Virus record (IMG/VR): IMGVR_UViG_3300042504_001927
Coordinates: 1 to 36,085 of that record
Direction: 5' to 3' (one strand)
Length of the DNA: 36,085 nucleotides
DNA from: a virus
The notes beneath the pieces are model-generated. The model was not told where the DNA came from. It searched no databases and worked only from the letters and a program-made list of their open reading frames with translations. Every line of letters starts with the position of its first letter. Within the stretch, counting starts at the first letter, position 1. Of this stretch, positions 6,908 to 35,937 are shown in pieces. A program made the translations under genes and the position numbers.

Positions 6908-6920
6908 GCCTCAGGCTACG

Positions 6921-6950
6921 GAGTTACTCCTGAGCTTCCGGTTCTGCAGT
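6921..6950 (-). promoter_or_regulatory. Possible copy of the 30-bp promoter-like element before the capsid gene
   Basis: Reading leftward, TGCAGAACCGGAA is identical over 13 bases to the element at 26159-26188, and seven of the remaining bases also match (20 of 30). It lies over the last codons of the portal gene and 14 bases before the capsid ATG. Its -10 position does not match TATGAT, and the same bases encode the end of the portal protein, so it may be chance or a degraded copy. Confidence 0.3.
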
Positions 6951-8557: not shown

Positions 8558-8585
8558 GGCGACACCTCCTAGGTCAGGCTACGGA

Positions 8586-14448: not shown

Positions 14449-14943
14449 CTACCGAGATTCGAGCAGCTCCTCCAGCTCCAGCCGCTTCAGCTCCAGATCA
14501 GTCGGCAGCTCCCAGGCGGTGTAGTCCTCACCATCGGCCGATGAGACGGTCAGATCCCCCACGGTGCTCCAGCTCGCCACCCAATTCAGGATCAGCTCCT
14601 GCCACCACCTGAGCCAGGGCGTCTCGCGGCTGAGGAGCAGAGACAGGCTCGTGGCGCGTTTCATCACCAGGTCGGCGGTTGCCTCAGTCTGTGGGCCGAT
14701 GAAAAACCCCACCGGCCAGGGCGGGGAACGAAACCACTCGGACGCCACGTCCAAGGGCAGGGTAGGGAGGGCGTGGGGTCGCCGAGCCGCTGCCAACCTG
14801 CCAACCCTGCCAACCAAGTTCTTAGGAGGCAGGAAACACCCCCTTTCCCAGCTATCCCCACTCTTTTCTACCAGTCTTTCTAAAAGGTTGGAAGGTTGGA
14901 AGGTTAGAAGACCGACTGCGGCAGAAGGGCTCTCGCTTGCCAA
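14449..14943 (-). CDS. Hypothetical protein between primase and gp10-like gene
   Basis: An open frame of up to 164 aa. The last 71 residues from the internal ATG at 14664 (MKRATSLSLLLSRETPWLRW) look protein-like, with Trp-rich helices and a C-terminal leucine/glutamate helix ELKRLELEELLES. The upstream part runs through the GGTTGG repeat region and is less convincing, so the true start may be 14664. No family is recognised. It lies 20 bases before the gp10-like gene and is probably cotranscribed with it. Confidence 0.45.
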   Translation of the reverse strand: MASESPSAAVGLLTFQPSNLLERLVEKSGDSWERGCFLPPKNLVGRVGRLAAARRPHALPTLPLDVASEWFRSPPWPVGFFIGPQTEATADLVMKRATSLSLLLSRETPWLRWWQELILNWVASWSTVGDLTVSSADGEDYTAWELPTDLELKRLELEELLESR

Positions 14944-15055
14944 CCTTGTTTGGCAAGGTTGGCATCCCCGCCTGTTTCAGCTTGGTCTCACTTAGGGGCA
15001 TGAAAAAAGGTTGGCAGCTTGCCAACCCCAGTGCCGCAGGTTGGCAAGCTGCTCA
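14790..15055. repeat. Cluster of GGTTGG/CCAACC repeats with nested hairpins
   Basis: About eleven copies of GGTTGG or its complement lie within 265 bases. Three TGCCAACC direct repeats sit near 14790-14815 and three AAGGTTGG-type copies near 14885-14905. A perfect 10-bp stem is formed by 14939-14948 and 14954-14963. An 8-bp stem lies at about 15009-15027, and its right arm can instead join a 13-bp stem, CAGCTTGCCAACC pairing with GGTTGGCAAGCTG at about 15040-15052. It is immediately beyond the primase stop. Iterons beside a replication gene suggest an origin, but a transcription-ending or processing role is also possible. Confidence 0.6.
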
Positions 15056-17817: not shown

Positions 17818-17856
17818 AGTATAGGGGGTGCAGATCCGCATCCTAAGCGGTAGGAT
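17818..17856. promoter_or_regulatory. Divergent promoter centred on a copy of the 30-bp element
   Basis: The element runs 17827-17856 on the plus strand: GGTGCAGATCCG, then CATCC, TAAGCGG and a final TAGGAT (17851-17856), a good -10 for the helicase start at 17889. On the other strand TATACT at 17823-17818 is a good -10 for the RHH gene that starts at 17794. The element therefore fills the space between two outward-facing -10 boxes. A protein bound here could control the helicase operon and the primase operon together. Confidence 0.7.
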
Positions 17857-17888: not shown

Positions 17889-19475
17889 GTGATCCACCTC
17901 CGCCCCCGCCAATCCCAAGCCGTCGAGGATCTGCGCCTGGCCTACGCCACCGGCGCCCGCGCCCCGATCCTGGTGGCGCCGACCGGGTTCGGGAAAACGG
18001 CCACGGCGACCGAGATCGTGCGTCTCGCCATCAGCCGCGGCCGCAGCGTGTGGTTCCTGGCCCATCTGCGCGAGATCCTCGATGACACCGCCGACCGACT
18101 CAGGGCGGCCGGCATCAGCCACGGCAGCATCAGAGCTGGCAGGTCATCCGACTACAGCCAGCTGGTCCAGGTGGTGGCAGTTCAGACCGCTGTTCGCCGG
18201 GCCCGACTGCCGCGCCCGGATCTGGTGATCGTCGATGAGTGCCACTTGGCCGTGGCCAACTCCTACCGGCAGGTGATCGCCGCGGCCGGCAACCCGCTAC
18301 TGCTGGGCCTGACAGGCACACCCCAGCGCCTAGATGGCCGCGGCCTGGGGGAGGTGTTCGACCGTCTGGTGTTGACCTGCACCACCGCCGAGCTGATTGG
18401 CGAGGCCCTCCTGGCCCCTGTGCGGGTGTTCGCCCCGCCAGGCGCTGACCTGAGCAAGCTCCACAGCAGAGCCGGCGACTTCGACCAGGGTGAGGCCAGC
18501 GCGGTGCTGTCGAAACCGGCAGTGGTGGGCGATGCCCTGAGCCACTGGCGGAAGCTCTGCCAGGGCCGGCGAGGGGTGGCGTTCTGCACCACGGTCGCCC
18601 ACGCTCAGGCCGTGGCTGAGCAGTGGCAGCGGGCCGGCTACAGGGCGGTGGCCGTGCACGGCGGCAGCGACGATGCCGAGCGCCGGGAGGCCGTGGCAGG
18701 GCTCAGGGCCGGGCGGCTCGAGCTGGTGGCCTGTGCGCAGCTGTGGATCGCCGGTGTGGACGTGCCAGAGATCGACACCGTGATCTGGCTCAGGCCCACC
18801 CAGAGCCTGACCGCATGGCTGCAGGGCAACGGCCGGGGCCTACGGATCGCCGCCGGGAAAAGCGACCTGCTGGTGTTGGATCACGTCGGGAACTGCCAGC
18901 GACTGGGCCACCCGCTGGAGGTGCACGAGTGGAGCCTGGATGGCCGGGTGAAGCGAAGCAGGGAAGCCGGGCTGTCGGTAAAGGTCTGCCCCCAGTGTTT
19001 CGCCGCGATGCCCTCCGCCCGCCAGACCTGCCCCGACTGCGGCCACCAGTTCACCCCTGAGCGGCGGGAGCTTGAGCACGTAGAGGGTGAGCTTGTGGAA
19101 GTGCAGCGGCGCTCAGAGTTGCCGCCGGTTGGGCCTTACAAGAAAGGCGACATTGTGCGTGACAGCAGGGTTCCCATTATTACAAATGAACTTGTTGTAT
19201 TAGGAGTTCATGGCGACAGGCTAAATGTAACCAGCCTGAATCCTGTTGAAATCAGTAAACAGATTCAAGCCCTTGGCTACACAGGATTTGGCCTTCCAGT
19301 AAGCGATGCCGTTTTTGTGCGCCGTCCAGACCACAAACGCGAACAGGCCAGCGCCACCACCATCGAAGACCTGATCGCCATCGGCAAGCGTCGCGGCATG
19401 AAAAACCCCCGCGGCTGGGCTCGGCATGTGATGGCGGCTCGGCAGGCGAAGGGTCAGTGGAGGAGGGTGGCATGA
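17889..19475 (+). CDS. SF2 DNA/RNA helicase (DECH box) with zinc ribbon
   Basis: A 528-aa helicase starting at GTG. Walker A reads APTGFGKTA at about 30-38, then DECH at 116-119, GLTGTPQRLDGRGLGEVFD as motif III, CTTVAHAQAV in the second RecA domain, and a motif VI-like GNGRGLR. A CPQCF to CPDCG zinc ribbon follows near 362-383. The start is fixed by the promoter 33 bases upstream and by the fold beginning HLRPRQSQA. Bases about 19140-19330, encoding residues about 420-480, are much more AT-rich than the rest, suggesting a domain acquired later. It overlaps the next gene as ATGA. Confidence 0.87.
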   Translation: MIHLRPRQSQAVEDLRLAYATGARAPILVAPTGFGKTATATEIVRLAISRGRSVWFLAHLREILDDTADRLRAAGISHGSIRAGRSSDYSQLVQVVAVQTAVRRARLPRPDLVIVDECHLAVANSYRQVIAAAGNPLLLGLTGTPQRLDGRGLGEVFDRLVLTCTTAELIGEALLAPVRVFAPPGADLSKLHSRAGDFDQGEASAVLSKPAVVGDALSHWRKLCQGRRGVAFCTTVAHAQAVAEQWQRAGYRAVAVHGGSDDAERREAVAGLRAGRLELVACAQLWIAGVDVPEIDTVIWLRPTQSLTAWLQGNGRGLRIAAGKSDLLVLDHVGNCQRLGHPLEVHEWSLDGRVKRSREAGLSVKVCPQCFAAMPSARQTCPDCGHQFTPERRELEHVEGELVEVQRRSELPPVGPYKKGDIVRDSRVPIITNELVVLGVHGDRLNVTSLNPVEISKQIQALGYTGFGLPVSDAVFVRRPDHKREQASATTIEDLIAIGKRRGMKNPRGWARHVMAARQAKGQWRRVA

Positions 19476-20092
19476 ACCCCCCACGCTGGACCCGCCCCGA
19501 GTCCGAGTTCCTTGAATCCCTGGCCGGCGACCTGCCCCTGAAGGAGATCGTCAGCCGTTACCGCCGGCGGGCCGGCCAGGTGGGCTGGCCTGAGCGCACC
19601 CATCGGGGGATTCAGCAGCGCCTGGTCCGCATGGGCCACGAAGCCCGGGTGCGCACGGGCGACTGGGTCACCACCGGCGGCGCCGCTGAGATCCTCGGTT
19701 GCCCCGGCACTCGCGTCGAGGCCTGGCTGCGAACCCGCCACATGAAGGCGATCCTCCAACCGGTCTGGCGCGGGAAGTTCCGTTACGTCAGCCGCGCAGC
19801 ATGGCGCCGGCTGGCCCGGCAGCGCCCGCAGGCCCTCGGCGGGTTCAGCGCAGATCGCCTGTTCCAGCTGCTCGAGGATCGCGAGCTGGCTGAGCAGGTG
19901 GCCAGCCGGTACCCCAGGCCCAGGGGTGACTGGCGGGTGCGGTGCGTGGAGACCGGCCAGGTCTGGCCCAGTGCGGTGAAGGCCGCCGCCGAGCTGCACG
20001 TCAGCCAGGCGGCGATCACCCTGGCGATGCGTCAGGCCCGCCCGGTGCGGGTGCTGGGGATGCGGTTTGAGGCGTTGCGGGAGGTGGCCTGA
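19472..20092 (+). CDS. Helix-turn-helix DNA-binding protein (206 aa)
   Basis: A basic protein with two probable DNA-binding segments. One is TTGGAAEILGCPGTRVEAWLRTRHM in the middle, followed by a FRYVSRAAWRRLARQ helix. The other is PSAVKAAAELHVSQAAITLAMRQ at the C-terminus, which resembles the repeated helix of NUMOD-type DNA-binding modules. The ATG at 19472 overlaps the helicase stop and has a GGAGGAGGG ribosome site; a GTG at 19457 is less likely. It may act with the helicase or as a regulator. No enzymatic domain is seen. Confidence 0.65.
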   Translation: MNPPRWTRPESEFLESLAGDLPLKEIVSRYRRRAGQVGWPERTHRGIQQRLVRMGHEARVRTGDWVTTGGAAEILGCPGTRVEAWLRTRHMKAILQPVWRGKFRYVSRAAWRRLARQRPQALGGFSADRLFQLLEDRELAEQVASRYPRPRGDWRVRCVETGQVWPSAVKAAAELHVSQAAITLAMRQARPVRVLGMRFEALREVA

Positions 20093-20129
20093 GGGCGTCC
20101 GTTGACTGCCGGAACCCCACCCGCCAGCC

Positions 20130-20528
20130 ATGCCCAGTGAACACGTCGTGCAACAACAGGTCCTGGCCCAGTTCGGCTCCGGCCCGGTCCGCCTGTGGAG
20201 AAACAACGTCGGCACCGGCTGGGCAGGCCAGGCCACGCGCGTCACTGCCGGGAATCTGCAGGCCATCGCCCACACCCTCCGGCCTGGCGACGTGGTGGTC
20301 AGGAACGGCCGCCCGCTCCACGCCGGGCTGTGCGTGGGCAGCTCCGATCTGATCGGCTACCGCCGTGTGGGCGACCTGGCCCAGTTCGTGGCGCTGGAGG
20401 TGAAATCCGAACGCGGCCGCCCAACCCCGGAGCAGACCCGGTTCCTCGATCACATTTCCAGCGCTGGCGGTTGTGCTGCAGTGATTCGCAGCGTTGAAGA
20501 TGCACATTCGGTTCTCCGCCAGGGATAG
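20130..20528 (+). CDS. VRR-NUC domain nuclease (PD-(D/E)XK fold)
   Basis: A 132-aa protein with the VRR-NUC pattern: SEHVVQQQVLAQF at the start, LCVGSSDLIGYRR with the catalytic Asp, FVALEVKSERGRPTPEQ with the E-x-K pair, then FLDHISSAGGCAAVIRSVEDA. Stand-alone versions are common in phages and probably act on branched or single-stranded DNA during recombination. It precedes the putative regulator and the RecT-like gene, fitting a recombination role. Length is typical for the stand-alone family. Confidence 0.85.
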   Translation: MPSEHVVQQQVLAQFGSGPVRLWRNNVGTGWAGQATRVTAGNLQAIAHTLRPGDVVVRNGRPLHAGLCVGSSDLIGYRRVGDLAQFVALEVKSERGRPTPEQTRFLDHISSAGGCAAVIRSVEDAHSVLRQG

Positions 20529-20535
20529 CAAAGCG

Positions 20536-20550
20536 GAACCGCTACGGTTC
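20536..20550. promoter_or_regulatory. Palindromic variant of the element core just before the 20555 gene
   Basis: GAACCG at 20536-20541 and CGGTTC at 20545-20550 form a nearly perfect palindrome around CTA, and the flanking bases give GCGGAACC as in the 21504 copy. It ends four bases before the ATG of the next gene. It looks like an operator in which both half sites are full length. It may be the strongest binding site of whatever protein recognises the element, and could autoregulate the gene it precedes. Confidence 0.5.
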
Positions 20551-20554
20551 AGAT

Positions 20555-21298
20555 ATGGAACACGAATCATCCGATCTGCGCCAGGAGCGCGGCGTTCAGC
20601 AGCTCGCCGCAGCGGTCACGTGCTGGCTGGCCCACAACCTCAGCCAGGACAAGATGGCCGCCCTACTCCATTGGGCCTACGGCGAAAAATCCGGGTTTGA
20701 TGGCGGCACGTTCAGCCGGATCAAGAACGCCAAGCAGTCCCGCGGCGCTGGCCTGCGCCACCTCGATGCCCTTAGCGAGACGAACCGCGCCATCTTCGTT
20801 TTTCAGACCATATCCGAGCGCGAGGCGATCAGGCAGTTCGGCCTGTACTCCGAGCACGGCGTGAGGCCTGAGTGGGTGGCCGACACGATCTGGCTGCCCA
20901 AACCCTACGACGAGACCCAACCCCTGGACCTGGGGGACTTCGCCAACCTGGTGATGGGCCGGCTGGAGCTGCCGTATGTGGGCGGCCACCTGACCCAGAG
21001 CCAGGCGCGGCGGGCCAACGAACGCCTGATCGACCTGCTGGACGATCTGGCAGCGGACAAGGGCTGGGGCCCACGCGAGGCGCTGCGGGAGTTCCTGGCG
21101 GCCTACCCGGCCAGCTCCAACAACGTCCGCCAGGCCCGGCTGAAGGAGCTGCTGATGGGCGAGCCGCTCAGCCACAAGGAGCTGGAGTCGGAGCTGGCAG
21201 CGCTGGCGGAGATGGTCCGCCAGGTCCGCGGGCTGGAGACGTTCACCCCTGCGCAGCTGCAGGCTGAACTGTTGTCTGATCGCCGGCTTCGGTCCTGA
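20555..21298 (+). CDS. Putative DNA-binding regulator of unknown family (247 aa)
   Basis: Not recognised at family level. The N-terminal 70 residues (QLAAAVTCWLAHNLSQDKMAA, then GGTFSRIKNAKQSRGAGLRH) have the spacing of a helix-turn-helix. A segment rich in Trp/Leu follows, then helices ending in a charged leucine-rich region (KELESELAALAEMVRQVRGLE) that could dimerise. It is preceded by a palindromic operator-like site almost touching the ATG, which is typical of autoregulated repressors. It may be the element's lysogeny regulator, but no direct evidence exists. Its 3' end overlaps a possible small leftward gene. Confidence 0.55.
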   Translation: MEHESSDLRQERGVQQLAAAVTCWLAHNLSQDKMAALLHWAYGEKSGFDGGTFSRIKNAKQSRGAGLRHLDALSETNRAIFVFQTISEREAIRQFGLYSEHGVRPEWVADTIWLPKPYDETQPLDLGDFANLVMGRLELPYVGGHLTQSQARRANERLIDLLDDLAADKGWGPREALREFLAAYPASSNNVRQARLKELLMGEPLSHKELESELAALAEMVRQVRGLETFTPAQLQAELLSDRRLRS

Positions 21299-21425
21299 TG
21301 ACCCGGTAGGCCAGCTGGCCGGCCACGTGCACGTCGATCGGCTGGAAGTCGTCGCCTGGCACGTGGCAGAGCATCCGCCAGAGCTGGGCGGCATCGGCGG
21401 CATCGGAGCAGTGGGCCTGAATCAT
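21243..21425 (-). CDS. Possible small protein (60 aa) on the opposite strand
   Basis: A 60-aa frame starting MIQAHCSDAADAAQLWRMLC, with a protein-like middle part DDFQPIDVHVAGQLAYRVI. It overlaps the last 56 bases of the putative regulator tail to tail. Upstream in its direction are a run of nine G (21460-21468) and, further on, the element at 21504, whose reverse side carries a weak TTTAAG -10. If real it would be expressed divergently from the RecT-like gene. No family is recognised. Confidence 0.35.
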   Translation of the reverse strand: MIQAHCSDAADAAQLWRMLCHVPGDDFQPIDVHVAGQLAYRVIRTEAGDQTTVQPAAAQG

Positions 21426-21503
21426 GGGTTGATAGGACTTGGTACAGAAGTAGTACGACGGGGGGGGGTGGCAAATGCGGTCTTGGCATTCTGCAGCCTT
21501 AAA

Positions 21504-21533
21504 GGTGCAGATGCGGAACCTTAGCGCTATGCT
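21504..21533 (+). promoter_or_regulatory. Copy of the 30-bp promoter-like element before the RecT-like gene
   Basis: GGTGCAGATGCGGAACC is followed by TTAGCGC and TATGCT (21528-21533), a good -10. The start codon at 21557 lies 24 bases on. It should drive the recombination operon from the RecT-like gene onward. The base changes relative to the 26159 copy leave the ACC half intact and alter the GGT half to GCT. Confidence 0.65.
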
Positions 21534-21556
21534 GGCGGAATCCACCGCGTCATGCC

Positions 21557-22393
21557 ATGGCCGACTCCACCAGCTCAGCGCTCACGGCGCCGAGCGCACC
21601 CCCATCCCTCAGCCTGCAGGTCACCTCCGTTGATGACCTGGCCCGCCTCGCCCGGGTGTTCGCCGCCAGTGGCCTGTTCGGCCGCGCCGGCAATCAGGAA
21701 ACACAGGTCGCCGAGTGCGCCATCCGTCTGATGGCCGGCATGGAGGCCGGGTTCTCCCCGTTCGCCAGCGCCACCGGCGTTCACATCATCAACGGCCGGC
21801 CTGCGTTCAGCTCCAACCTGCTGGCCCAGGCCGTGCGCCGCCACCCGACCTACGACTACCGGGTGGTCGAGAAGTCTGCCAAGGCCTGCCGGATCCGGTT
21901 CCTTGCCAACGGTGAAGAGATGGGCGTGGAGACCTTCACCATCGAGATGGCCGAACGGGCGGGCCTGCTCAAGAACCCGACCTGGAAGGCCTACCCCGAG
22001 GCCATGCTGTTCAGCCGGGCGCTCACCGCCGGGATGCGCACGCACTGCCCCGACGCCCTCGGCGGCCACACGGCCTACACCCCCGACGAGATCGGCGGGG
22101 AGGTGGTGCCGGTGACGGTCACCGAGGCCACCCCTCAGGTCGATCCCGTTGAGCATGCCCAGCAGGTCTGCAGCGATGCGGGCCTGACCGCAGACGGCGT
22201 GATCGCGTTCTGTCTGCTGGTCAGCAGCGGCCGGATCGCCACCCTGTCGGATCTGCCGGCGAAGGTGCTGGAGAGGATCATCCAACAGGGCATCAGCGCC
22301 GAGACCGTGGCGAAGTGCAACGGCCCAGCCGCCGAGCCCGACCCCGACCCAACCGAAGACCCCGACGATCTGCCCGCCGCCTGGTCCGCGTGA
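21557..22393 (+). CDS. RecT-like single-strand annealing protein
   Basis: A 278-aa protein with a RecT/Redbeta-like course: a GMEAGFSPFASATGVHIINGRPAFSS segment, FSSNLLAQAVRRHP, then MAERAGLLKNPTWKAYPEAMLFSRALTAGMR and the end TAYTPDEIGG. The acidic Pro/Asp-rich tail and the QVCSDAGLTADG region are accessory. Proteins of this kind anneal complementary single strands during phage recombination and replication. A following SSB gene and a preceding VRR-NUC nuclease fit this. No lambda-exo-like partner is seen. Confidence 0.7.
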   Translation: MADSTSSALTAPSAPPSLSLQVTSVDDLARLARVFAASGLFGRAGNQETQVAECAIRLMAGMEAGFSPFASATGVHIINGRPAFSSNLLAQAVRRHPTYDYRVVEKSAKACRIRFLANGEEMGVETFTIEMAERAGLLKNPTWKAYPEAMLFSRALTAGMRTHCPDALGGHTAYTPDEIGGEVVPVTVTEATPQVDPVEHAQQVCSDAGLTADGVIAFCLLVSSGRIATLSDLPAKVLERIIQQGISAETVAKCNGPAAEPDPDPTEDPDDLPAAWSA

Positions 22394-23440: not shown

Positions 23441-24804
23441 CCACCTACGCCGACTTCCTAGAGCGCAAGCTCCACACCGGCGCTGACCACGGCTTCGATC
23501 CAGTGTTCATGCCGCCGCAGCTGTTCGACTTCCAGCAAGCCCTAGTCGAGTGGGCTGTCCGCAAGGGCCGCGCCGCAATCTTTGCTGACTGTGGTCTGGG
23601 TAAGACCGCCATGCAGCTCACCTGGGCTGAAAACGTGGCCCGCTACACCGACCGGCCCGTGCTGATCCTGACACCGCTAGCGGTCGCCGCGCAGACCATC
23701 CGCGAGGGCGAGAAGTTCGGCATCGAGTGCCACCGCTCCAGCGATGGCAGCGTGCCGGGGCGGATCGTGATCACGAACTATGAACGGCTGTCAGCATTCA
23801 ACCCGGCCGACTTCGGCGGTGTTGTCTGCGATGAATCCAGCATCCTCAAGTCGTTTGACGGGGCACGCCGTAACGAGATCACCGACTTCATGCGCAAGGT
23901 GCCCTACCGGCTGCTGGCCACCGCCACCGCCGCGCCCAATGACTTCATTGAGTTGGGCACCAGCTCCGAGGCCCTCGGCTACATGGGCCACATGGACATG
24001 CTGGCGCGGTTCTTCAAGAACGACCAGAACAACCTGACTAGCCGGCGGATGTATGGAGAGGCTCCTAAATGGCGCTTTAAGGGGCACGCTGAGCAGCCGT
24101 TCTGGAGATGGGTCACCAGCTGGGCCAGGGCCTGCCGCAAGCCCTCAGACCTTGGCTTTGATGATGGCCGCTTCATCCTGCCGCCACTGAATGAGATCGA
24201 TCACCTGATCGAAACCAGCACGGTGCCGGAGGGGATGCTGTTTGCCATGCCTGCCACCGACCTACGGGAGCAGCGGGCAGAGAAGAAGCGCACCGTTCAG
24301 GAGCGCTGCGAACAGGTCGCGGCCATGGTCGCCACTACGGGCAAACCCGCTCTGGTGTGGTGCCACCTGAACGAGGAGGGAAACCTGTTGCAGCAGCTAG
24401 TCCCCGACTCAATTCAGGTCTCTGGATCTGATCGGGATGATGTGAAGGAGTCAAGGCTGGTGGACTTTGCGGAAGGTCGCGCCAGGGTGCTGATCACTAA
24501 GCCCAAGATCGGCGCATGGGGCCTCAACTTCCAGCACTGCAACCACATCACGTATTTCCCATCTCACAGCTTTGAGCAGTACTACCAGTCGGTCCGCCGA
24601 TGCTGGCGGTTCGGCCAAAAGCATGCCGTCAAGGTTGACATCATCCTGACGGAAGGGGAGCGGCGAATCATGGAAAACCTCAGCCGCAAACGGCAACAGG
24701 CTGAGCAGATGTTTTCCAATCTGGTGACAGAGATGAACCACTCCATCGCCATCAGCAAGCCCACCTACAACACCACCACCATCACCCTGCCGCCATGGCT
24801 GTAA
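23437..24804 (+). CDS. SNF2-like DEAD/DEAH-type phage helicase
   Basis: A 455-aa protein with Walker A FADCGLGKTAM at about 49-59, VLILTPLAVAAQT, a DESS box near 130 (VVCDESSILKSFDG), LLATATAAPNDFIELGTSSEALG as motif III, and QSVRRCWRFGQ as motif VI near 387. It lacks an insert typical of true chromatin remodelers, so it is the short phage form. The gene is followed directly by a DNA methyltransferase, a pairing seen in many phages, suggesting joint action on replicating or modified DNA. It overlaps the upstream stop as ATGA. Confidence 0.87.
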   Translation: MTTYADFLERKLHTGADHGFDPVFMPPQLFDFQQALVEWAVRKGRAAIFADCGLGKTAMQLTWAENVARYTDRPVLILTPLAVAAQTIREGEKFGIECHRSSDGSVPGRIVITNYERLSAFNPADFGGVVCDESSILKSFDGARRNEITDFMRKVPYRLLATATAAPNDFIELGTSSEALGYMGHMDMLARFFKNDQNNLTSRRMYGEAPKWRFKGHAEQPFWRWVTSWARACRKPSDLGFDDGRFILPPLNEIDHLIETSTVPEGMLFAMPATDLREQRAEKKRTVQERCEQVAAMVATTGKPALVWCHLNEEGNLLQQLVPDSIQVSGSDRDDVKESRLVDFAEGRARVLITKPKIGAWGLNFQHCNHITYFPSHSFEQYYQSVRRCWRFGQKHAVKVDIILTEGERRIMENLSRKRQQAEQMFSNLVTEMNHSIAISKPTYNTTTITLPPWL

Positions 24805-25766
24805 TCACTGACCGTTACGCGATCTATCACGGCGACTGCATCGAAGTGATGCAGGGACTGCCGAGCGAATCCGTTCACTTTTCGATCTATTCCCCACCGT
24901 TTGCCGGCCTGTACGTCTACAGCTCAAACGAGCGGGACATCAGCAACAACAACGACTATGATCAGTTCCTGCTTCACTACGGCTATGTGGTTTCACAACT
25001 GCATCGCCTGACACTGCCTGGCAGGTTGACCGCTGTTCACTGCTGCGACATTCCAACCGGCAACAGTGGACAGGATGCGCTGTTTGATTTGCCGGGCGCG
25101 ATTGTGCGTTTGCATGAGCAGCACGGATGGCACTACGTGGCCCGCCACACCATCTGGAAAGAACCGCTATGGGTGCGCAATCGCACGATGGTGAAGAACC
25201 TGGCACATAAGACGATTGTGGATGATGCAGCTTTTGCTGGTGTTGCATCCGCTGATTATCTGTTGATTTTCCGCCGCAGCGGAGAGAACAAGATCCCCAT
25301 CGCCAATCCGACCGGGCTTGACCATTACGCTGGAGAGTGTCCCATTCCCCAAGAGCTGCACCGCTACAAGGGCTGGAAAGGCAAGCAAACCGAAAACCGT
25401 TTCAGCCACTGGATCTGGCGTCGGTATGCCTCATCTATCTGGGATGACATCAACATGGGCCGGGTTCTGCCGTTCCGTGATGGCAAGGATCCTGACGATG
25501 AAAAGCACGTTCACCCGCTGCAACTGGATGTGATCGATCGTGCCATCTGCCTACGGTCAAACCCTGGTGAGACAGTGCTAACCCCATTCATGGGTGTGGG
25601 CAGTGAGGTCTACGGGGCGGTGTCGCTAGGCCGCCGTGGCATCGGTATCGAGTTGAAAGAGTCGTATTTCAACCAAGCAATCAAGAACATGGAGATCGCC
25701 GTAGAGGACACACGCGACCCTGACCAGGGCAGCCTGATCAATTTCGATGACCTGGAGGCCGCCTGA
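24795..25766 (+). CDS. DNA methyltransferase, N4/N6 type (beta class)
   Basis: A 323-aa enzyme. Catalytic motif IV reads SPPF at about 33-36, near the N-terminus, and the SAM-binding motif FMGVGSEVYGAVSLGRRGIGIEL lies near 270-292, so the order is that of beta-class amino-methyltransferases. SPP rather than DPP favours N4-cytosine, but N6-adenine is not excluded. It probably protects or marks phage DNA. It overlaps the helicase gene by 10 bases and the next gene as TGATG. No adjacent restriction nuclease is seen. Confidence 0.88.
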   Translation: MAVITDRYAIYHGDCIEVMQGLPSESVHFSIYSPPFAGLYVYSSNERDISNNNDYDQFLLHYGYVVSQLHRLTLPGRLTAVHCCDIPTGNSGQDALFDLPGAIVRLHEQHGWHYVARHTIWKEPLWVRNRTMVKNLAHKTIVDDAAFAGVASADYLLIFRRSGENKIPIANPTGLDHYAGECPIPQELHRYKGWKGKQTENRFSHWIWRRYASSIWDDINMGRVLPFRDGKDPDDEKHVHPLQLDVIDRAICLRSNPGETVLTPFMGVGSEVYGAVSLGRRGIGIELKESYFNQAIKNMEIAVEDTRDPDQGSLINFDDLEAA

Positions 25767-25906: not shown

Positions 25907-26178
25907 TCACCCTCACCACCCCCACCCAGCAGGCCCTGGCCCGCATCGTCACCGCGCCCGCCACCAGTGATCAGGGCCGGCCGACGCCAACACCCTCCAC
26001 CCGGTTATCGCTGGCCGCCTGCCCCATGCCGACCCGGTGCTTTACGCCTTGCGAGACGTGCACCAACGTCGCCCGCAGCATGGCCGGTGAGCTGGGGCAG
26101 ATCCTTCGGGAGCGGCACGGTGGGTCCAGTTCGGTGGCGGACTGGTTGGATGGTTTGGGGTGCAGAACCGGAACCTAA
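25903..26178 (+). CDS. Hypothetical Cys-containing protein (91 aa)
   Basis: A 91-aa protein starting MITLTTPTQQALARIV. The middle has a Cys cluster (CPMPTRCFTPCETCTN), suggesting a metal site, then a helix ending SSVADWLDGLG. Its last codons run into the element at 26159-26188, so the promoter of the next unit is inside this gene's 3' end. It overlaps the preceding gene as ATGA. Low-complexity composition means that the start could be later. Confidence 0.45.
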   Translation: MITLTTPTQQALARIVTAPATSDQGRPTPTPSTRLSLAACPMPTRCFTPCETCTNVARSMAGELGQILRERHGGSSSVADWLDGLGCRTGT

Positions 26179-26188
26179 GCGGTATGAT
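26159..26188 (+). promoter_or_regulatory. Copy of the 30-bp promoter-like element before the membrane-HTH gene
   Basis: GGTGCAGAACCGGAACC is followed by TAAGCGG and TATGAT (26183-26188), the best -10 match of the set. It serves the 53-base leader and start codon at 26242. With 33917-33946 and 28015-28044 it defines the consensus. Confidence 0.7.
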
Positions 26189-28014: not shown

Positions 28015-28044
28015 GGTGCAAATCCGGAACCTATGCGGTAGGGT
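28015..28044 (+). promoter_or_regulatory. Copy of the 30-bp promoter-like element before the 28111 gene
   Basis: GGTGCAAATCCGGAACC is followed by TATGCGG and TAGGGT (28039-28044), a weaker -10. It precedes a 66-base leader whose first part matches the leader of the 26242 gene. Confidence 0.65.
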
Positions 28045-28052
28045 ATGGAGGT

Positions 28053-29077: not shown

Positions 29078-29348
29078 GGCTCAGGGTATGGACAGGGGAT
29101 GTACGTTCCCCGAGACTCCCTGCCGTTACTGGGCTCTCACTACGACATCCGGGCCATTGATGAGGATCTGTATCTGGCGGTGCTCGCCTGTCGTAGAGCG
29201 CAAAGTGGCTGCGCTGCAGGCGATCTGACCAGTACGCCAGCTCCAGCGTTAGGGACTGCAGGGGACTGCGAAGGCCCATAATTTCGCGGAATATGTACCG
29301 GCCGTCCATCGGTGCATTGATCCCAGATTCTGCGCGTCGTATTCGCCC
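29078..29348. other. Gap before integrase, possible attP region
   Basis: About 270 bases with no convincing gene on either strand. Open frames here are short or lack a good start. It lies just upstream of the integrase start, a common place for attP. No tRNA 3'-end fragment or clear direct repeat was found, so the core cannot be placed. Nothing else stands out. Confidence 0.25.
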
Positions 29349-30344
29349 ATGGCCAGCGTGAACGTCCATCGCGACCGCCTGTACCTGCTGGCCAAGGTGC
29401 CGCGCCGCGACGGCAGCCCAGGCCTGCAGCAGTGCCGGATTGCCCTGCGGCTTGACGACACGCCAGTGAATCGCCGCACTGCCGCCAAGCAGCTGCAGAC
29501 CCTGGAGCAGCAGCTGGCGACCGGGACGTTCGACTGGGCGTACTGGAACGATCAGGAGCAGGGGATCACCTGGCGGGATGCCATCGCCAGGTTGCATCGT
29601 GCTCGGGTGGTATTGGGCCGCACGTCGGAGACGACCTGGGAGATCAACTATATGGGCCGGCTGCGGCAGATCCCACCAGGGGCAGCCGTGACCACTGAAT
29701 CGATAGCGCAGGCGCTGCAGCGTTACGACCGCTCGACGTGTTCGTACAAGGAGCTCTGGTATCTGCTGCGGCATATCGCCAAGCTGACAGGCGTGCCGTT
29801 TCCCGAGCTGCCAGTGCCGACCTATGGCCAGGCCCAGCTGGTGGCAGTGCCTACCGATGCGGAGATCATCAGCTGGGTCGAGGCGTCAGATGCCGCGGCC
29901 TGGTATTTCGGGATGATGGCCACGTACGGGCTGAGGCCGCACGAAGTGGAAGGCTCGCGGCTGATCGAGAAGGATTACTGCCAAATATCAGACAGCACTA
30001 AAACCGGATTCAGGACGGTGGTGCCGGTGCCACGCGAATGGGTTGAGCGGTTCAGGCTGCGCGATCGGCGGCTGCGGCCTGGTGGCGTGCCGGGTGAACG
30101 ACCTGATGCCGTGTCGAAGTGGCTGCATAAGGAGCTACGCCGGCTGGGTTTGCCATGGCGGCCTTATGCGCTCAGGCATGCGTACGCCGGTCGGCTATGG
30201 AAGCAAGGCGGCAGCCGGCTGGATATCTACACCGCTGCCAGGCTGATGGGCCACACGCCGCAGCAGCATGCCAATACGTACCGTGCCCACATTCAGCCGC
30301 ATGCGGTGGCAGAGGCGGCAGAGAGGGCGTTAAGGGGTGGGTGA
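29349..30344 (+). CDS. int: Tyrosine recombinase / phage integrase
   Basis: A 331-aa integrase starting MASVNVHRDRLYLLAKVPRRDG. The catalytic domain has the first Arg in ATYGLRPHEVE, the second box RPYALRHAYAGRL, then LMGHTPQQHANTYRAHI with the box-III His and the nucleophilic Tyr. In box II the usual His before the LR pair is Tyr, a known variant. It inserts and, with a partner, excises the element at an att site. The nearby 76-aa HTH protein at 30694-30924 could be that excisionase partner. Confidence 0.9.
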   Translation: MASVNVHRDRLYLLAKVPRRDGSPGLQQCRIALRLDDTPVNRRTAAKQLQTLEQQLATGTFDWAYWNDQEQGITWRDAIARLHRARVVLGRTSETTWEINYMGRLRQIPPGAAVTTESIAQALQRYDRSTCSYKELWYLLRHIAKLTGVPFPELPVPTYGQAQLVAVPTDAEIISWVEASDAAAWYFGMMATYGLRPHEVEGSRLIEKDYCQISDSTKTGFRTVVPVPREWVERFRLRDRRLRPGGVPGERPDAVSKWLHKELRRLGLPWRPYALRHAYAGRLWKQGGSRLDIYTAARLMGHTPQQHANTYRAHIQPHAVAEAAERALRGG

Positions 30345-30697: not shown

Positions 30698-30924
30698 CGT
30701 TGTTCTCCAGTGTGTGAAGGCACCACCGCCCCAACATTCACCCGCACCATGCGCCGCTGAGCACCCACTGGCGCCAGATCGATCAGCTCGCGGCCCCACC
30801 GCCAGCGGGATTTCCGATTGCAGTCGGCTTCGTGGATCAGGCGCTTGATATGCCGCTCACTGCAGCCGAGGGCCTCGGCAGCTTCGGCCACGGTGAGCAA
30901 CAGTCTTGGGCTGCACTTCCGCAT
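30694..30924 (-). CDS. Excisionase-like helix-turn-helix protein (76 aa)
   Basis: A 76-aa protein starting MRKCSPRLLLTVAEAAEALGC and continuing SERHIKRLIHEADC. This is the MerR/AlpA-type winged helix seen in excisionases and small phage regulators, followed by a WRWGRELIDLAPVGAQ strand. It sits close to the integrase, though in the opposite direction. It could direct excision or regulate the integrase. The start could instead be the ATG two codons earlier, at 30930. Confidence 0.65.
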   Translation of the reverse strand: MRKCSPRLLLTVAEAAEALGCSERHIKRLIHEADCNRKSRWRWGRELIDLAPVGAQRRMVRVNVGAVVPSHTGEQR

Positions 30925-31226
30925 CAGCACCCCTCCCTGCCAAACAGGGAGCAGTCACTGGCAAACACTGGCCCCTCCAGCGCAGGGTCTGGAAACCCCA
31001 GCCCGCACTCGCCGTGATACCAGTGCATGCACCGCTCGCAGCTTGGATCGTTTGGTCCTGGTGGTGGCCGGTAACCATCAGGCAACGCGTCGCGGTAGAT
31101 CTTGCCGATCCGTATCTGGCGGATCGTTTCACGGCTGACGCCATACACCTGCCCTAGAGCACGGTGCGTTTCAGGTGATGCAATGATCGCCGCGATCTGC
31201 TCAGCGGTGAACTTCCGGGTGGTCAT
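30924..31226 (-). CDS. HTH protein with small Cys-rich C-terminal domain (100 aa)
   Basis: A 100-aa protein. The first 45 residues are a helix-turn-helix (TAEQIAAIIASPETHRALGQVYGVSRETIRQIRIG). The C-terminus has a metal-binding pattern, CERCMHWYHGECGLGF and then DCSLFGREGC. The Cys region resembles the 59-aa protein at 23261. It overlaps both neighbours (TGATG and ATGA). Likely a DNA-binding regulator of unknown target. Confidence 0.65.
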   Translation of the reverse strand: MTTRKFTAEQIAAIIASPETHRALGQVYGVSRETIRQIRIGKIYRDALPDGYRPPPGPNDPSCERCMHWYHGECGLGFPDPALEGPVFASDCSLFGREGC

Positions 31227-33284: not shown

Positions 33285-33893
33285 TCATTTGATACTCCAG
33301 CTGCGGCGCTCGACCAGGGTGCAGCCGGGCACGGTTTTGACCGTGGCGACGGCAGCGGCCTTGGCAGCGGCTTCGTCGCTCGGCGCGACCGCCACGGCTG
33401 CGGCCACGGCGGTTTTGATTGCGTCCTTGATCGCGGTCTTGTCAGCCTCAACTTTCACCCGCTGATACAGCTTCGGCAGATCCTCCGGCTCGCAGTCCAC
33501 CACCACAACCGTGGATTTCCGGCTGCTGATCTTGTGCTCAGGCAGGTCGTATTTCGTGGCCTCGGGGTCAACCTTCTGCAGCGCCTGAATTAGCCGATCC
33601 TGCAGCGCATCCGCCTGCTGCTCATCACCAGCGGCCAGCTCAGCCAGCGCCTGAGCGCGAGCTTTGCGGGCATCACGCCTGGTCCTGAGCGAGTCGATCA
33701 CCCAGCACCAGGCGTCGGCCTTGGAGAGGATGGCCTGTTTGTTGTCGGACTCGGCGGAGATCAGGCCTTCCAGCGTGGCGGTGGCCGCGGCCACCACGGC
33801 AGGATCGTCACTGAACAGGTCGGCGGCGGCCTCGTCGATCTGCTGCTGCAGGCGTAGGGCGTCGCCGGTGAGGGCGTAGAGGGTGGCAGGCAT
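33285..33893 (-). CDS. Siphovirus Gp157-family protein
   Basis: A 202-aa protein starting MPATLYALTGDALRLQQQID and containing SDNKQAILSKADAWCWVIDSL, KYDLPEHKISSRKSTVVVVD, LPKLYQRVKVEADKTAIKDAIK and the end CTLVERRSWSIK. This is the Gp157 pattern, often linked with phage resistance in streptococci and with early phage operons. The start at 33893 is chosen because the earlier frame begins inside the -10 box of its promoter (33917-33922). First gene of the leftward early operon. Confidence 0.82.
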   Translation of the reverse strand: MPATLYALTGDALRLQQQIDEAAADLFSDDPAVVAAATATLEGLISAESDNKQAILSKADAWCWVIDSLRTRRDARKARAQALAELAAGDEQQADALQDRLIQALQKVDPEATKYDLPEHKISSRKSTVVVVDCEPEDLPKLYQRVKVEADKTAIKDAIKTAVAAAVAVAPSDEAAAKAAAVATVKTVPGCTLVERRSWSIK

Positions 33894-33916: not shown

Positions 33917-33952
33917 ATCGTACCGCTTAGGTTCCGGATCTGCACCTATGAT
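33917..33952. promoter_or_regulatory. Divergent promoter centred on an inverted copy of the 30-bp element
   Basis: Reading leftward from 33946: GGTGCAGATCCGGAACC, then TAAGCGG, then TACGAT (33922-33917) as -10 for the Gp157 operon. On the plus strand TATGAT at 33947-33952 directly abuts the element and serves the sigma factor, whose GTG lies at 33979. The element thus sits between two outward -10 boxes, as at 17.8 kb. Confidence 0.7.
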
Positions 33953-33978
33953 GAGGCAGATTCGTCACACTCGCCCCG

Positions 33979-34935
33979 GTGCCCGCCAGCTCTGCTCAGT
34001 CCTGGTGGCTTGACAGCATCGGGCGCATCCCTCTGCTCACCCCAGCCGAAGAGATCGAGCTGGGCACTGCAATCCAGCGGTGGCAGACCCACCCTGATCC
34101 ATGCCCACCAGGCATCCGAAGACGAGGCATGCGGGCACGTGATCGATTCGTGTCAGCGAACCTGCGGCTGGTGATCGCGTACATCGCAAAACGCTGTCAC
34201 CGACTGGCGAAGGCGTATGACCGCGAGGATCTGATACAGGCTGGGAATCTGGGTCTGATCACCGCTGCTGAGCGGTTTGATCCGAGCAAGGGATACCGGT
34301 TCAGCACGTACGCGTACTGGTGGATTAGGCAGGCGATCAACCGATGGGTCGATCAGCACGGGCGGAGCATTGCGATTCCGGGCAGCCACTGCCAGCACCT
34401 GGCAAAGCTGGAGCCGATCACCCGCCGGCTGGAGCGCGAGCTGAACCGCACGCCAACGCAGGCGGAGATCGCCGCGGAACTGGGCGTATCGATGCGGGTG
34501 CTGGAGGCGGTGCTGGAGAACGGCCGACCGGTGGGCAGCTTGGATCAGGTGGTCACTGATGACGGTCTGGAGCTCGGCAGTCTGGTCGCCACGTATGACC
34601 GCTCACCAGAGGATGAAGAGGAACAACGGGAGCGGTGGCGGCAGGCTGAACAGCTGCGTGGTCTGATCGCCCGGTTGGCGCCGCAGGATCGCAGGTTGTT
34701 GTCCTTGGCCTGGGGTCTTGACGGTGTGGAGATCCCGAGGCCTGAGCTGGCCCAGCAGGAAGGGCTGAGCACACGTGCGCTCGACGTGCGCCTGGAGCGG
34801 CTGCAGGCATCACTGGCGTCTGAGTCGGTGCAGCTGGTGCTGGTAGCAGTTCAGCGGATACCAGTTGCAGTGGTGAAACGCTGCAGACGGCGGAAGGTGC
34901 GTGATGGCGTGCAGCTCGCGCTGGCGGTGGCGTGA
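33979..34935 (+). CDS. Phage-encoded sigma-70-family factor
   Basis: A 318-aa sigma factor starting at GTG. Region 1.2 is like cyanobacterial factors (DSIGRIPLLTPAEEIELG). Region 2 is well kept: ARDRFVSANLRLVIAYIAKR, DREDLIQAGNLGLI and GYRFSTYAYWWIRQAINRW. Region 3 is recognisable (LERELNRTPTQAEIAAELGV). Region 4 is divergent (RPELAQQEGLSTRALDVRLERLQA), followed by an unusual hydrophobic and basic tail. It should direct host RNA polymerase to element promoters. The altered -35 reader fits promoters that lack a normal -35. Its own promoter is a copy of the 30-bp element. Confidence 0.85.
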   Translation: MPASSAQSWWLDSIGRIPLLTPAEEIELGTAIQRWQTHPDPCPPGIRRRGMRARDRFVSANLRLVIAYIAKRCHRLAKAYDREDLIQAGNLGLITAAERFDPSKGYRFSTYAYWWIRQAINRWVDQHGRSIAIPGSHCQHLAKLEPITRRLERELNRTPTQAEIAAELGVSMRVLEAVLENGRPVGSLDQVVTDDGLELGSLVATYDRSPEDEEEQRERWRQAEQLRGLIARLAPQDRRLLSLAWGLDGVEIPRPELAQQEGLSTRALDVRLERLQASLASESVQLVLVAVQRIPVAVVKRCRRRKVRDGVQLALAVA

Positions 34936-35835: not shown

Positions 35836-35893
35836 ACGAAGTGGCACACATAAGAACGAAGTGGCACACGACTGGCACACAAAAGCGGCACAC
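35836..35893. repeat. Four direct GGCACAC repeats (iteron-like)
   Basis: ACGAAGTGGCACAC occurs at 35836-35849 and again 20 bases on at 35856-35869. TGGCACAC follows at 35873-35880 and CGGCACAC at 35886-35893. The first two copies are two helical turns apart. Iterated same-facing sites point to cooperative protein binding, as for replication initiators or repressors. Confidence 0.55.
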
Positions 35894-35937
35894 TGACGCC
35901 GCCACTCGGTATCACCCCAGCACAAAACAGGGCCGCT

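Follow-up and report, generated by a model that had tools for sequence, protein, structure and literature searches.

We found that a cyanophage sigma factor whose region 4 has lost the standard -35-contact residues is associated with a 12-bp motif, TCCRTAGCCTGA, which lies on the late strand at late-gene boundaries (hereafter, the late motif); the phage sigma probably reads this motif. A second outcome of the analysis was an early regulator-operator system built on a repeated 30-bp element. Both outcomes are probable, and the pair of sigma factor and late promoter is the more interesting of the two. The window, that is, the whole stretch of DNA analyzed, is IMG/VR record IMGVR_UViG_3300042504_001927 (36,085 nt), from a virus whose hosts are freshwater cyanobacteria. 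Since the window carries an integrase-like gene, the virus may be temperate, and it is probably a temperate cyanosiphovirus. It is related to Synechococcus phage S-LBS1 (MG271909), which has, as in the window, gp157 beside the sigma gene, two helicases, a single-strand annealing protein, an SSB and a primase-polymerase. The S-LBS1 sigma is an orthologue (77% identical), with the same back-to-back promoters in the gp157/sigma gap and the same late motif and tail; however, S-LBS1 has no detectable homologue of the window regulator, and the middle of its element differs. The features of the window are collected in Table 1.

Table 1. Positions of the sigma gene, late motifs, regulator, elements and neighboring features in the window
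Feature	Position	Strand	Remarks
Phage sigma-70 gene, 318 aa	33979-34935	+	Regions 1.2, 2 and 3; divergent region 4; tail
Divergent region 4 helix of sigma	residues 264-280		STRALDVRLERLQASLA
Sigma tail QLxL motifs: QLVL (residue 285), QLAL (residue 312)	34831-34845, 34912-34926	+	Clamp-binding-like, putative
TATGAT, putative -10 of sigma gene	33947-33952	+	Abuts divergent element copy 5
gp157 gene (Sipho_Gp157)	33285-33893	-	ATG at 33893; behind element copy 5
Late motif TCCGTAGCCTGA	6911-6922	-	3 nt before major capsid ATG (6907, minus strand)
Late motif TCCGTAGCCTGA	8574-8585	-	Directly after terminase stop codon
One-mismatch late motif TCCATACCCTGA	29081-29092	-	3 nt before ATG (29077, minus strand); may be chance; also in G003 and G013
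Regulator gene, 247 aa	20555-21298	+	HTH-like first part; putative repressor of elements
Palindrome CGGAACCGCTACGGTT	20534-20549	+	Putative operator at regulator start; same sequence in 10/10 close relatives
Element copy 1	17827-17856	+	Before helicase gene (17889); back-to-back with late-module -10
TATACT, putative -10	17818-17823	-	Faces leftward primase/late module; back-to-back with element copy 1
Element copy 2	21504-21533	+	Before SSAP gene (21557)
Element copy 3	26159-26188	+	Before small gene at ~26242
Element copy 4	28015-28044	+	Before gene cluster starting at 28045
Element copy 5	33917-33946	-	Putative promoter-operator facing gp157; ends 24 nt before ATG 33893
Integrase-like gene	29349-30344		

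The window sigma matched the Pfam families of regions 1.2 (PF00140), 2 (PF04542) and 3 (PF04539) above the cut-off, and there was no Pfam match to region 4 (PF04545). Region 4 is still recognizable by alignment, though divergent, and an extra tail follows it; this bears out the preliminary description, which had been made from the letters of the window and had called region 4 divergent with an added tail. The same description held that region 2 was kept, which stands for the aromatic stretch of region 2.3 but not for region 2.4, where RQAIT of the host sigmas has become RQAIN. Compared with the RpoD/SigA sigmas of host cyanobacteria, regions 1.2-3 align at ~38-40% identity, whereas region 4 of the host proteins retains SRERVRQ at the recognition helix and forms their C-terminal end, with no tail. 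The window sigma has STRALDV at this helix, and sequence comparison indicates the loss of the standard -35-contact residues. A family-specific helix, STRALExRL, is conserved among the sigmas of the window family. Against TIGR02997, the cyanobacterial RpoD-like subfamily, the window sigma scored 187.6 bits, under the curated cut-off of 384.5. Elsewhere in the window, a 100-aa ORF on the minus strand (30924-31226) matches sigma region 4 at a sub-threshold level (Pfam E 4e-4), and the noncoding DNA to the right of the sigma gene (35840-35895) holds short direct repeats containing GGCACAC.

The tail carries two QLxL motifs, although its C-terminal form in the window, QLALAVA, is not canonical. QLxL follows region 4 in 52/56 sigmas with a divergent region 4, a class that was set by a simple pattern and of which L082, L088 and L089 may belong with the canonical sigmas. 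By cluster, the motif occurs in six divergent sigma clusters and is missing in two; among the other long ORFs, strict QLxL in the last 20 residues was found in 0/314. Tail forms among the divergent sigmas, for instance EQLSLFAA, TQLALFGPLE, EQLRLF and LQLPLIP, are similar to QL(S/D)LF, the clamp-binding peptide of bacteria (PMC9690074). Binding of the QLxL tail motifs to the host beta sliding clamp is a serious possibility, which we advance tentatively. That the tail is instead a structural beta-strand or polymerase-contact segment, with no clamp-binding peptide, falls just short of being probable: QLxL is short and degenerate, its internal copy QLVLVAV sits in a broadly conserved stretch, and QLx[LIF] arose in 4-28% of shuffled tails. 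Yet tails that are otherwise unrelated have the motif near the C-terminus, it takes the canonical forms QLSLF, QLALF and QLRLF in L061, L075 and L094, and it is not seen at this place in host sigmas, whose C-terminal end is region 4. As a probe of the motif used by the host clamp, UmuC of four host genomes was searched for QLxLF with a simple pattern, which did not find it. One further sigma, 56% identical to that of the window and with QLELF and QLSLW motifs, lies on a contig of a Synechococcaceae MAG (L266) assigned to the host genome; this contig is possibly a prophage or a binned phage contig.

The late motif was counted in 44 records, with matches accepted at up to one mismatch and the reversed pattern serving as the control. 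The 19 records with a window-type sigma had 61 matches, 30 of them exact, and the control gave 9; 60/61 of the matches lay on one strand per record. In the 24 relatives whose sigma was missing or only distantly related, there were 5 matches, none exact, and the control likewise gave 5. This motif-poor comparison set includes phages with related terminases (G082, G083, G085-G087) and phages with related capsid proteins (G048, G050, G058, G082). Exceptions among the sigma-bearing records were G025, in which no late motif was found, and G007, in which there was only one. The remaining record, a 24-kb fragment (G078), carried three exact copies, and no sigma lay within the 24 kb. No copy lay inside a long ORF (0/26), versus ~60% of random positions, and at terminase loci all 38 matches fell on the late strand. 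Upstream of the 12 bp there was no conserved -35 or other sequence. A gap of 3-27 nt separated the late motif from the start codon, and a normal ribosome site followed some of the copies.

It is from this co-occurrence, together with the anatomy of the protein, that we infer reading of the late motif by the phage sigma. A motif without a -35 would be fitting for a sigma with replaced -35 contacts and an altered region 2.4, and shared descent may account for part of the association. The -10 candidate within the motif, TAGCCT, is unusual for a -10. Several copies lie very near an ATG; the mRNA would therefore be leaderless. The copies sit directly between stop and start codons, in the sense strand only and often 3-4 nt before the ATG, which would also suit a signal of this phage lineage at the RNA level (a translation start context, RNA processing or a stop region), with the sigma working elsewhere. 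We consider this rather unlikely, given that the start codon distance is variable and a normal ribosome site follows some copies, that the motif is unlike a ribosome-binding site, and that phages without a window-type sigma lack it at their capsid and terminase homologues. TATRRT was also considered as a late signal and was ruled out, the late strand having no further copies of it. In the literature, we found no paper describing promoters of the window-type sigma or the motif TCCRTAGCCTGA, which is apparently previously undescribed.

If the phage sigma reads the late motif, the nearest known system is that of T4 (gp55/gp33/gp45), which likewise has a phage sigma-like subunit and -10-only late promoters, the late motif being a putative promoter here (PMC2988020). 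T4 gp55 has a C-terminal clamp epitope, the counterpart of which in the window sigma is putative, and gp55-gp33 fusions are functional with the epitope in an internal position (PMC2988020). The two systems differ in several ways. The gp55 family is a region-2 sigma without regions 3 and 4, whereas the window sigma has regions 1.2-4 of the sigma-70 type in one chain, including region 3 and a region-4 remnant. The clamp-like motif of the window is of the bacterial QLxL type, so that its partner would be the host clamp and not the T4 clamp, and TCCRTAGCCTGA replaces the T4 late promoter sequence. By analogy, the window sigma could be a natural counterpart of the gp55-gp33 fusion, in which a degenerate region 4 and two QLxL motifs would tether the holoenzyme to the host clamp and fire -35-less late promoters on replicating DNA; we regard this as possible but somewhat doubtful. 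Coupling of late transcription to replication is regarded as a hallmark of the phages related to T4 (PMC2988020); if the clamp link were true, such coupling would have emerged anew, by way of the host clamp. The cyanophage Ma-LMM01 also has temporal promoter classes, but it has no homologues of gp55 and gp33, and its late promoters are similar to sites of the host SigA (PMC5780444).

The window has five strong copies of the 30-bp element, matching at 25-29/29 positions (best of 30 shuffles, 20). In the 44 distinct copies that make up the element matrix, the ends (KTGC and TANGAT) are constant, and the middle, CGGAACC-N4-CGGTA, is conserved but varies more than the ends. From this anatomy the elements are predicted to be early promoters, with a -35-like KTGC, a 17-19 bp spacer and a TANGAT -10. 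In copies 1 and 5 the arrangement is shared: the element occupies one strand and a -10-like hexamer faces the other way. Among relatives with the same gp157/sigma gap, nearly all retain the sigma-facing TA...T hexamer.

The middle of the element follows the site of a phage regulator. In the window, all half-site matches of at least 11/12 were the palindrome at the regulator start or an element. Homologues of the regulator were found in nine further records, at 26-64% identity. Across nine genomes, element middles were a better match to the regulator site of the same genome than to the sites of other genomes (permutation p 0.0035, a guide only, as some of the nine are close relatives), and in five representative genomes the true pairing was the best of 120 arrangements. 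The clearest case is G032, where the regulator site contains GTCTTAGTCCAGACC and the element middles have changed in kind: its elements, GGTTGC-GGTCTGAGTCAAGACC-GGCAGGAT and GGTTGC-GGTCTAAACCAAGACC-GCTACGCT, keep the same 30-bp frame with another middle. The simplest reading of this covariation is that the element is a promoter and has an operator within it.

The regulator resembles phage repressors of the XRE/cI type in its HTH-like first part and in having a putative operator both at its own gene and in several early promoters, but its family is without a Pfam match (none among 15 members) and the remainder of the protein has no clear relative. A first, single-sequence structure model was of too poor quality. 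In the model used here (pLDDT 88.9), the first part resembled two known proteins, with modest scores: an XRE regulator, at Z 7.7, and a repressor from a staphylococcal island, at Z 5.5. Foldseek of the model against the PDB returned nothing significant. A regulator homologue was undetectable in several element-bearing genomes, S-LBS1 and G007 included; therefore, either these genomes use another protein or their operator has persisted after the regulator was lost, and no replacement regulators were identified in these genomes. The 211-aa protein at 19457-20092 (+), which has weak HTH matches and lies behind the helicase, was ruled out as the element binder, being missing from many element-bearing genomes; it is present in S-LBS1 and others but not in all relatives, and is possibly homing-endonuclease-like.

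The preliminary description had also proposed that the sigma gene is controlled by the element, starting 27 bases after a TATGAT that abuts it. The positions hold, as the GTG start of sigma lies 27 bases beyond the end of the TATGAT. However, element copy 5 is on the minus strand and is, by its orientation, the predicted promoter of gp157, pointing away from sigma, and the TATGAT that faces sigma forms a back-to-back pair with this copy. What survives of the proposal is that the sigma gene lies beside or behind an element: divergent from it in the window, directly behind it in G034 and G035, and in an operon behind one in G032. In G034 (20123-22106) and G035 (23678-25661), the genes directly behind the element are tandem sigma genes; region 4 is canonical in one and divergent in the other, which ends in QLSLFAA.

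The further proposal, that the phage sigma drives all element promoters, was not supported, since the middle of the element follows the regulator's site and changes with it. The expected co-occurrence itself was found: every element-bearing record over 31 kb also carries sigma, no element was seen at the loci examined in primase-helicase relatives without a window-type sigma, and the contigs that showed an element without sigma were all too short for a decision. A sigma with a new -35 specificity (GGTGC plus a TANGAT -10), in a positive loop over all element promoters, would agree with this co-occurrence, with the more constant ends of the element and with the conserved STRALExRL helix, but it is improbable: shared lineage of these phages could give the co-occurrence, the late motif tracks sigma better than the element does, and the -35-like KTGC stays constant while the recognition helix changes (KPARVDGRL in G034/G035). 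GGTGC as a sigma-specific -35 was ruled out, being unchanged where the sigma helix changes. Moreover, early genes lie behind elements, as does sigma itself in G032, G034 and G035, so that transcription from there must be able to start before sigma exists. The element promoter would be more simply read by the host polymerase than by the phage sigma, which may nonetheless have some activity on the constant ends (KTGC, TANGAT).

Taken together, we favor, with moderate confidence, a two-step transcription program in which early element promoters are followed by late promoters read by the phage sigma and coupled to the clamp. In the first step, host RNA polymerase probably reads the 30-bp elements as early promoters; the regulator would bind the spacer operator, act by its position as a repressor, and also cover the back-to-back sigma and late-module promoters. 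In the second step, relief of repression would allow the phage sigma to be made as one early gene product. Being without standard -35 contacts, it would direct core polymerase to the -35-less motif at late-gene boundaries, including that of the major capsid gene, and its QLxL tail may tether it to the host beta sliding clamp, by which late transcription would be coupled to replication, in the manner of gp55/gp33 and the T4 clamp. Many cyanophage records include an annotated sigma factor, but the promoters that it targets have seldom been identified. Here one widespread freshwater sigma family is matched to a particular late signal, to an early system of regulator and operator, and to a link with replication that can be tested; the sigma and its 12-bp signal would be candidates for an orthogonal expression pair in cyanobacteria.

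Some relatives have an extra element beside origin-like repeats, reading toward the packaging genes; it is strong in L350 (2553-) and L351 (2590-), and weak in L110 and L122, where it follows the primase stop. In the window, the noncoding stretch at 14700-15053 (-), after the stop of the primase-helicase gene, contains AACCT / GGTTGGCA direct and inverted repeat arrays and an A+T patch. This stretch is conserved in L106-L125, occurs twice in S-LBS1 near the record end, and looks like a replication origin with iterons.
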